From Sedimentisphaera salicampi (lineage in GTDB: Bacteria; Planctomycetota; Phycisphaerae; Sedimentisphaerales; Sedimentisphaeraceae), in NCBI RefSeq assembly GCF_002117005.1, contig NZ_CP021023.1, positions 2,342,995 through 2,406,994 on the forward strand: a stretch of 64,000 bases of DNA, given 5' to 3'. The stretch's first letter is position 1. Every line of letters starts with the position of its first letter. Made by a program: the position numbers and the translations under genes. Below the pieces are notes generated by a model. It saw nothing but the letters and a program-made list of their open reading frames with translations. It did not search any database and was not told the origin of the DNA. This document shows positions 24,540 to 29,020 of the stretch, piece after piece.

Positions 24540-24815
24540 AAATTTTCTCCTAATATTACTAATTTCTGTTTTAATTCAGTGAAAATCCGTATCAGTCTAT
24601 TAAAAAGCGGGTTAAAGTCAATATGTGCGACGTGTCGCAGAAGCCTCGGAAACGCCCAAAACCATCCAGATATTACTCTCTTTTTCAGCCGAAAGCTTTT
24701 CTAAGCTGTTGAAATTTTCGTTTACTGACTGACAGACTGAACGGCTTTAAGACTCAAAGAATGGGAAAAAATTAAGCTTAGATTTAAAAAATGTTAAAAA
24801 TTTTTTAATTTTGGC
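24540..24815. other. AT-rich divergent spacer
   Basis: Separates the etf operon (minus) from the leader of the 61-aa gene (plus). It should hold the etf promoter, but I could not pick a convincing -35/-10 pair. No gene, tRNA or repeat is seen. Confidence 0.4.
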
Positions 24816-24844
24816 TTGAATCGCAGCTTTTAATCTGCTATATT
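24816..24844 (+). promoter_or_regulatory. Predicted sigma70-type promoter of the 61-aa gene leader
   Basis: TTGAAT (24816-24821), 17-nt spacer, TATATT (24839-24844). Predicted transcription start is around 24851, almost at an ATG (24853) that opens a 13-codon ORF ending TGA at 24894. Confidence 0.6.
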
Positions 24845-24919
24845 AACAGCCAATGAGATTTGGAAGATTCATTATTAGAGGCTATCCAAGTTGAGAAAAG
24901 TAAAAAAACCAGAAGAACA

Positions 24920-24963
24920 AACCCGGTGAGCCAGAACGTAAGTTCCGGCGAGTCGGGTTTTTT
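24920..24963 (+). terminator. Terminator hairpin 1 of the leader
   Basis: AACCCG (24920-24925) pairs with CGGGTT (24954-24959). An inner stem GCCaGAAC/GTTCcGGC is capped by a GTAA tetraloop of the GNRA type (24938-24941). A run of six T's (24958-24963) follows. Confidence 0.65.
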
Positions 24964-24984
24964 CTTTGGTGAAACGAGACACGT

Positions 24985-25029
24985 ATGAACGAAAAAGAAA
25001 AGTTAAATACAAACCGCTTCGGAGAATAA
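24985..25029 (+). CDS. Candidate 14-codon leader ORF
   Basis: ATG at 24985 to TAA at 25027-25029 encodes M-N-E-K-E-K-L-N-T-N-R-F-G-E. The last six codons lie in the 5' arm of terminator 2, so a ribosome here would block that hairpin. The Shine-Dalgarno is poor (GGTGA about 12 nt upstream). Translation is not shown; it is listed because of its placement. Confidence 0.25.
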   Translation: MNEKEKLNTNRFGE

Positions 25030-25058
25030 GGAGTATTATTCTTGAAGCGGTTTTTTTT
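25012..25058 (+). terminator. Terminator hairpin 2 of the leader
   Basis: AACCGCTTC (25012-25020) pairs with GAAGCGGTT (25044-25052); inside, AGAATAA (25023-25029) pairs with TTATTCT (25036-25042). Eight T's (25051-25058) follow. It lies 41 nt before the ATG of the 61-aa gene, in the position of an attenuator. Confidence 0.7.
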
Positions 25059-25098
25059 GTGTTAATTAAAAAACATTATTTATTCACGGAGGTGAACT

Positions 25099-25284
25099 AT
25101 GGATGCACTGGAACAGAAGGTAACCAAGACTCTTGAGAAGTCCGGATGGCGTACAGAAGTTAGAGACGGCGTAGATATGGTCGGCTATCGACCTCGGACT
25201 AAGAAGATGTTCTACGGCAACATGTTCCACCTCTGCCACGACCACGAGATTGATATGGTGCTTAAGCACGATTACTCTCACTAA
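25099..25284 (+). CDS. 61-aa His-rich small protein of unknown function
   Basis: I do not recognise this protein. A strong GGAGGTGA Shine-Dalgarno just before ATG 25099 and a terminator after the stop show a real gene. Residues 1-35 are charged and probably helical then beta (L-E-Q-K-V-T-K-T-L-E-K-S-G-W-R, D-M-V-G-Y-R-P-R-T-K-K). The last 20 residues are rich in possible metal ligands: H44, C46, H47, H49, H57 and H61 with several Asp/Glu. There is no signal peptide or membrane segment, so it is cytoplasmic. Its leader has two terminators, suggesting tight control of its amount. Metal binding is inference. Confidence 0.7.
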   Translation: MDALEQKVTKTLEKSGWRTEVRDGVDMVGYRPRTKKMFYGNMFHLCHDHEIDMVLKHDYSH

Positions 25285-25321
25285 ATAAGTCGTTGCAGTA
25301 TTTTCCTTTTGTTTATCATAT

Positions 25322-25360
25322 AAGGGCTGCATGAGTTTTGCTTTTGCAGCCCTTTTTTTT
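25322..25360 (+). terminator. Intrinsic terminator after the 61-aa gene
   Basis: AAGGGCTGCA (25322-25331) pairs with TGCAGCCCTT (25345-25354) and is followed by T's to 25360. It closes the transcription unit 38 nt after the stop. Confidence 0.8.
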
Positions 25361-25404
25361 AAGAAATCCATCGCGGCAAGACCCGCATAGATTTCACAAC
25401 TGCT

Positions 25405-25810
25405 ATCAGTGTGCGACAATATTTTTTGGCAAAATGCAAATCATCATGCTGCAATGCTTTGTAGAATTTATTGTTATCTATATTACTGAGCCAGTCCGCC
25501 TGCGGCGGAAAACTCGCTAAGGATTTTTTGTCTGCGGGTTTCGTTGGCGAGTAGGGGCGAACATGCGCGAGTGATCGCCTGTGCAGCGTGAAAATTCTGC
25601 GAATAAAACTTATGCCTATTGCCTTCTCATTGCCTTTTGTCCACTTATTTCGTCCGCCGAAGGCGGACTACATGCGTGGCTCTGATTGTCGTTAGTATTC
25701 CGCAGCGATTTTACAAGGCAAACATTTAAACCGAGCCGCACGTGGAGGCCCGCCGCAGGCGGGCCGGAACAAGCGGATAGATTCGGCTTTAAAAAGCTTT
25801 GCCCAAAAAA
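25405..25810. repeat. Mosaic of dispersed intergenic repeats with GC-rich palindromes
   Basis: Non-coding. Modules: inverted TGCGACAATATTTTTTGGC (25412-25430); ACTGAGCCAG plus CCGCCTGCGGCGG (25484-25508), recurring at 53773-53796; TGTCCACTTATTTC (25638-25651) plus GTCCGCC-GAA-GGCGGAC; a 56-nt block at 25681-25736 matching 28821-28876; palindrome GGCCCGCCGCAGGCGGGCC (25749-25767); AAGCGGATAGATTCG (25771-25785). Short ORFs across it are repeat translations. Confidence 0.6.
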
Positions 25811-28390: not shown

Positions 28391-28674
28391 AGATAAGGTT
28401 CTTTTGATGGAGAAAGCCAATTTAAAATTAATATGAAATCTTTATCTCATCCTGTCAATCTTGTTAATCCTGTCTAATTTCTTGCCTCCCTCTCCGCCTT
28501 CGGCGGACAGGTTCGGTTTAACTCTCTTTTACATCAGAGAAAACATTTTCATAAATGAGAGGGGAAAGCTCTCTGCCGGAAGAACGTTTCACCGCAATAC
28601 CAAACTCTTCTCCAATGTTTAAATTGTATTTTTTACACGGAGATATCGGAGGAAGCGGAGAGATATTTTTTTAA

Positions 28675-28709: not shown

Positions 28710-29020
28710 GCCACGAGCTACTCTGCCATCCGCCGCAGGCGGACTTGCAGCTCTGCTACTCTGCCACGAGCCACGAATCTATCCGTTTGTTCTCCCCCTG
28801 CGGCGGACTCCACGTGCGTCTCTGATTGTGGCTAGTAACACGCAGCGATTTCACGAAACGAAATATTTAAACCGAGCTACGCTTAAAATCCTCTGCAGGC
28901 TGGACGGAACACAAAGCTTTGCCAAAAATATTCTCGCACACTAGAGCAAACTTTTCAGTGAACTTTGTATGCTTGAGGGTGTATTAAGAATTTTTAAGCG
29001 GTTTTTATCTCATATTATTG

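Follow-up and report, generated by a model that had tools for sequence, protein, structure and literature searches.

How can a gene be expressed from a promoter that is separated from it by two successive intrinsic terminators? The question is posed by a small transcription unit in the window, the 64,000-nucleotide stretch of the Sedimentisphaera salicampi chromosome analyzed here (host genome 3.19 Mb, single contig), where such a leader precedes a gene for a 61-residue protein. An initial annotation had proposed either ribosome-dependent attenuation or a small RNA followed by a regulated small gene. Comparison with related genomes indicates that the conserved leader, new as far as the tools can tell, is most likely a tandem translation-coupled attenuator.

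A discrete transcription unit with tandem terminators

The unit spans window positions 24766-25364 (the unit and its parts are on the + strand) and consists of its own promoter, a leader, the 61-residue protein gene and its own terminator, making the gene a stand-alone one. A promoter scan places TTGAAT-17-TATATT at 24816-24844, as first annotated, and transcription would begin near 24851. Directly 5' of the -35 hexamer and inside the conserved block lies an A/T-rich tract (AAAAATTTTTTAATTTT, 24786-24812) that may serve as an UP element; it is retained in the sister species (G001) and has a similar counterpart, AAAATTTTTAATTTTT, in G002. Terminator 1 (24919-24963; hairpin 24919-24957, U-tract 24958-24963) has a GUAA loop of the GNRA type and six T's, and its hairpin folds at -21.7 kcal/mol (-30.9 with flanks, z -5.6). 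Terminator 2 (25011-25058; hairpin 25011-25050, U-tract 25051-25058) has eight T's and a hairpin of equal predicted stability (-21.7, z -5.9), and the leader RNA as a whole reaches -65.8 kcal/mol against -40.7 +/- 4.1 in shuffles (z -6.2). The main gene follows, with its Shine-Dalgarno (SD) sequence GGAGGTGA at 25088-25095, the open reading frame at 25099-25284 and terminator 3 at 25322-25360 (fold z -4.9), shortly before the conserved block ends at 25364. The promoter, both leader terminators, the second of two annotated mini-ORFs and the small gene are thus real, and on these points the initial annotation had read the locus correctly. One scan of 464 kb of this genome (the window and a further 400 kb of sampled sequence) gave 98 terminator-like hairpins, among which the leader pair is the sole convincing same-strand tandem, and two further same-strand pairs less than 160 nt apart resembled, on reading, intragenic hairpins or A/T-rich chance pairs.

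Aligned to G001, the unit has sharp limits at either end. The stretch running from the -10 hexamer to terminator 1 is 95% identical, that separating the two terminators 96%, terminator 2 itself 100%, the remainder up to the start codon 97.5% and the coding sequence 97% (100% in the protein); the housekeeping references rnr and the etf genes are 88% and 90% identical, respectively, and the core promoter 83%. Judged by this alignment, 24766-25364 is a discrete unit under constraint. The G001 copy sits at another chromosomal site (G001:C1 near 1834433-1834863), and the sharp edges at different sites in two congeners look as if the unit had been moved like a cassette. Among the eight genomes with the gene, flanking proteins are common only to G003 and G004, which are congeneric MAGs.

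Those eight genomes, all from one Phycisphaerae order (G000, G001, G002, G003, G004, G006, G040 and G462), were found by homologue search with the 61-residue protein, and two of the relatives are Phycisphaerae MAGs. They provide eight leaders but only six independent lineages. Each of the leaders has a good promoter (TTGACA/TTGAAT-17/18-TATANT or similar) at the equivalent position, 194-399 nt 5' of the start codon, with TTGACA-17/18-TATANT in five of the others, and the first U-tract lies 96-114 nt past the end of the -10 hexamer. A scan of the stretches 3' of the terminators matched no promoter of comparable strength: the best matches beyond the last terminator score 6-8.5 of 12, whereas the main promoters, scored by eye, reach 9-11. 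At least one strong terminator stands between promoter and gene in every leader and a second in six of the eight, its U-tract 81-97 nt 3' of the first; a second terminator is missing from G006 and G040, which counts against the tandem-attenuator reading. Compensating base changes, which the initial annotation had suggested looking for, are present in terminator 1, where both sides have changed at three of nine outer-stem pairs among the family sequences, only three of which are distinct.

Known RNA families do not account for the leader. Against Rfam 15, the window yields only a tRNA above the gathering score, and a relaxed search gave chance-level matches. A leader model (R1) found no second convincing copy in the eight genomes, although it does not reach G006, G040 and G462 genome-wide and marks the correct place in the leaders of G006 and G040 only weakly (21 bits). 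Within that reach, we rejected the idea that the leader is a repeated or regulon element.

Short ORFs placed at similar distances from the terminators

The first mini-ORF of the initial annotation (MRFGRFIIRGYPS, 24853-24894), whose stop lies 24 nt 5' of the hairpin, is probably non-functional: a 1-nt insertion in G001 breaks its frame and brings a stop after 8 codons. A different ORF stands at terminator 1. This uORF1 (24891-24929) has a TTG start, 12 codons (LRKVKKPEEQTR) and a stop in the 5' arm of the terminator, and is preceded 9 nt upstream by the SD sequence GAGG (24878-24881). The earlier statement that both mini-ORFs lack ribosome sites was therefore about the wrong first ORF, the TTG ORF with its GAGG having been overlooked; the second mini-ORF has a weak SD (GAG). 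The uORF1 frame is intact in the window species and in G001 (LRKVKKPVEETR), and its counterparts are MSKLKLTI in G002, LARIIK in G003 and G004, MTIDKYSLEPKAEI in G006, LHDLDRYSDPANKGF in G040 and LRNTRIESCCRK in G462. A similar SD occupies the equivalent place in G001, G003, G004, G006, G040 and G462, so that uORF1 has an SD in five of the six lineages, the exception being G002, where no good one is present. In all eight leaders uORF1 starts 59-70 nt 5' of the terminator-1 U-tract and 23-28 nt 5' of the hairpin base, and it stops between -7 and +25 nt relative to that base.

Most uORF1 starts are TTG codons that predicted folds place partly in base pairs, which counts against an attenuator driven by uORF1 translation. 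The SD and TTG of the window's uORF1 lie inside a small predicted 5' hairpin (UUUGGA/UCCAAG, 24857-24893), and the predicted folds of the other leaders likewise show partial pairing of the SD region. If it forms, this pairing could tune initiation at uORF1.

The second mini-ORF, here uORF2 (24985-25029, ATG start, 14 codons, MNEKEKLNTNRFGE), stops inside terminator 2, within its 5' half, in agreement with the initial annotation. From its ATG to the second U-tract the distance is 66, 66, 66, 65 and 65 nt in the five genomes of the family (G000-G004) and 69 or 63 nt in G462, and in all six leaders that have terminator 2 the frame enters or crosses the hairpin. Because the uORF starts sit at matching distances from their U-tracts, the two terminator modules share one geometry. 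A proper uORF2 SD is found solely in G003 and G004, which, like the lack of a good uORF1 SD in G002, counts against the attenuator reading; in these two genomes a 34-35-codon frame with a GGAG SD reads right through terminator 2. The differences between these two versions are mostly non-synonymous, and the coding of the peptide is therefore not itself under selection.

How often would such an arrangement arise by chance? When the sequence before each hairpin was dinucleotide-shuffled, an ORF with an SD reached the terminator-1 hairpin in 16-45% of cases per lineage if geometry was ignored and in 5-9% if it was required; G002 was left out, as its leader offers no SD for shuffling. Of the 98 hairpins in this genome, 15% have such an ORF and 4% have this geometry. 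At a chance of 15%, occurrence in five of six lineages corresponds to about 4e-4, a figure obtained by simple arithmetic and meant only as a guide. For uORF2, shuffles gave an ATG at 63-69 nt with a probability of 8-33% per lineage. The small probabilities are optimistic, since the geometry ranges were set after seeing the data.

The same comparison bears on the small-RNA proposal, according to which about 24851-24963 would be a small RNA gene, terminator 2 a fail-safe and the main gene a product of low read-through. A strong promoter followed by a strong terminator within about 115 nt, and 95% identity of the leader within the genus, are what a small RNA gene might look like. However, the RNA always accompanies the 61-residue protein gene though the flanking genes differ, R1 found no other convincing copy in the eight genomes, and a fail-safe terminator would not require an ATG at 65-66 nt. 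A free-standing small RNA is the weaker of the two original proposals because outside the genus only the layout of SD, ORF and hairpin is kept, not the sequence, and we consider it very unlikely. Attenuation dependent on ribosomes was the better guess, given that the ORF-in-terminator geometry is maintained at both sites and that terminator 1 shows compensatory changes.

Would the ribosome act by stalling? In a classical leader-peptide attenuator, a ribosome held up by a missing aminoacyl-tRNA or by an antibiotic switches the RNA between terminator and antiterminator. A short ORF with an SD 5' of a terminator fits such a scheme, as does a stretch, [LI]D[KR]YS, common to the uORF1 peptides of G006 and G040. 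Against it, no uORF1 contains a run of a single amino acid, the peptides differ between lineages, partial folds omitting the terminator 3' arm revealed no antiterminator pairing common to the leaders, and the ORF runs into the terminator itself. The run of codons for a regulated amino acid expected of a trp-type attenuator is absent from every uORF1. With no common antiterminator, no shared codon run and little shared sequence, stalling at particular codons is unlikely, and we judge the classical scheme as a whole highly improbable.

The peptide sequences are barely conserved between lineages. G006 and G040 represent two families and their uORF1 peptides are otherwise unrelated; the serine of their shared stretch is encoded by TCA in one leader and AGT in the other, a hint of constraint at the peptide level in this branch.

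A small-protein family found in one order

What is the gene that lies behind these terminators? Relative to the window protein, amino-acid identity is 100% in G001, about 70% in G002-G004 and 33-47% in G006, G040 and G462; seven more genomes of the order gave matches at E 0.01-0.1 and were not counted as homologues. No homologue was found outside the order in samples spanning the class and the phylum, each comprising about 400 genomes, nor in one scan of IMG/VR contigs or in phage records, and Pfam, NCBIfam, PHROGs and PDB sequences gave nothing significant. By sequence, then, the 61-residue protein is a new family, confined within the searches made to one Phycisphaerae order. Twelve columns are invariant (M1, E5, G16, W17, T19, E20, Y30, P32, K36, Y39, G40 and L55). 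The five histidines and one cysteine that had suggested metal binding are indeed present at the C-terminus of the window protein, but they are largely absent from G006, G040 and G462; the tail is restricted to the window's own family, and metal binding through it cannot be a property of all members.

Two structure predictions agree on an alpha-beta-beta-beta-alpha arrangement (pLDDT 78 and 84.5). Fold searches with these models gave weak and mixed matches, to a Holliday-junction resolvase (Z 5.6), to HicA (Z 5.0-5.1) and to dsRNA-binding domains. The predicted elements follow the order of the dsRBD-like HicA fold, the best matches (Z 5.0-5.1) lying within the background. A HicA toxin (PF07927) was rejected by sequence: a Pfam scan of six members and a genome search both miss the 61-residue protein gene, and hhalign of the family against HicA gave a probability of 6.6% over 14 columns. 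Nor is there a histidine motif of the GSHH type, as the family has no invariant histidine and the local HicAs have invariant H22 and H39.

The weak resemblance of the predicted fold to dsRNA-binding domains is of interest for another explanation, in which a trans-acting factor overcomes two intrinsic attenuators in the leader and the short ORFs are incidental. The factor could be an antitermination protein, a cold-shock-type RNA chaperone, a processive antitermination system or the 61-residue protein itself acting on the hairpins, and a single processive factor would naturally overcome two serial terminators. Against this explanation, the position of the ORFs relative to both U-tracts is conserved across lineages; moreover, the leader comparison shows no conserved loop or box outside the genus and the fold matches are weak. 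We therefore regard a trans-acting factor as unlikely.

Two proposed ribosome-polymerase races in series

We consider it probable that the leader comprises two translation-coupled attenuators in series that control the 61-residue protein gene. By analogy, it would work most like two attenuators of E. coli. In the ampC growth-rate attenuator, an SD and start codon lie directly 5' of an intrinsic terminator, the start is followed by an immediate stop, and ribosome binding itself is sufficient to prevent termination, whatever the peptide. In pyrBI, a ribosome closely following a polymerase that pauses in a UTP-sensitive manner along a 44-codon leader prevents the hairpin from folding. The present leader shares with ampC the SD and start codon 5' of an intrinsic terminator, and ribosome entry is proposed to prevent termination here as well, again with no part for the peptide itself. 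It differs in that the start is 23-33 nt before the hairpin, so that several codons must be read, and in that the module is present twice. With pyrBI it shares the placing of the terminator within a leader ORF or at its end, but neither the long leader nor UTP-sensitive pausing is seen. Features of this type of attenuator recur throughout: an intrinsic terminator lies between promoter and gene and a conserved short ORF overlaps or abuts terminator 1 in 8/8 leaders, with an SD in 5/6 lineages, and at terminator 2 an ORF is present in 6/6, with a good SD only in G003/G004.

We infer the following sequence of events, in which the uORFs would be translated, the hairpins would terminate transcription in vivo and translation would raise expression. 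Both modules have a short ORF whose start lies about 66 nt 5' of the U-tract and 23-33 nt 5' of the hairpin base, so that the hairpin is just clear of the footprint of an initiating ribosome; the stop falls at the hairpin, within it or past it. Unless something intervened, the hairpins would fold and transcription would end. A ribosome that reads a few codons before the polymerase leaves the U-tract would cover the 5' arm and permit read-through, and the gene would be transcribed only when both races are won. The leader would thus report how fast translation runs, or how well ribosomes are supplied, in relation to the speed of the polymerase, and having two such modules one after the other would make the response sharper. 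The toeprint edge of an initiating ribosome lies at +16 (PMC9226507), and with the hairpin just beyond this edge, initiation alone should not block folding but a few codons would. For E. coli it has been shown that the ribosome almost fully represses a terminator lying a few bases 3' of a translated stop and that this effect wanes at distances above about 27 nt; terminators placed in the first 100 bp of coding sequence stay efficient (PMC4824070), presumably because the ribosome lags.

Other leaders share parts of this design. Salmonella mgtCBR also has two short ORFs and two attenuators serially in one leader, but each responds to its own signal (ATP, and proline-tRNA via proline codons), whereas here there is one geometry and there are no signal codons (PMC3641672). 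A Sinorhizobium leader likewise controls a small DUF protein (DUF1127) by uORF-dependent attenuation and is a proposed monitor of ribosome availability; it has no intrinsic terminator, is probably Rho-dependent, and translation lowers rather than raises expression of its gene (PMC12218461). Bacillus subtilis vmlR has a short uORF with an SD 5' of an intrinsic terminator, but depends on antibiotic stalling and on anti-antiterminator and antiterminator structures, an alternative pairing not seen here (PMC9226507).

A literature search found no such regulation described for the phylum. If the proposed mechanism is correct, a simple repeated module, a start about 66 nt before a U-tract, would report on the coupling of transcription and translation with no need for a particular peptide, codon or ligand, and the conserved spacing makes a testable prediction of how closely a ribosome must trail the polymerase. 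The analysis also defines an uncharacterized family of small proteins, and its proposed regulation hints at a function when translation or growth rate is altered. A more elaborate version, in which a dsRBD-like protein is gated by two races of equal geometry as a coupling gauge in Planctomycetota and possibly autoregulates through its own leader hairpins, appears quite unlikely.

The surroundings of the unit contain a separate element. The palindrome TCCGCCNNNGGCGGA occurs four times in the window (25495-25509, 25653-25667, 28493-28507 and 28729-28743), with none expected in shuffles, and the longer GTCCGCCNNNGGCGGAC was counted at 27 genomic places, those listed spanning 0.76 to 3.02 Mb, compared with 0 for the reversed control. 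Together they constitute a dispersed, REP-like repeat.
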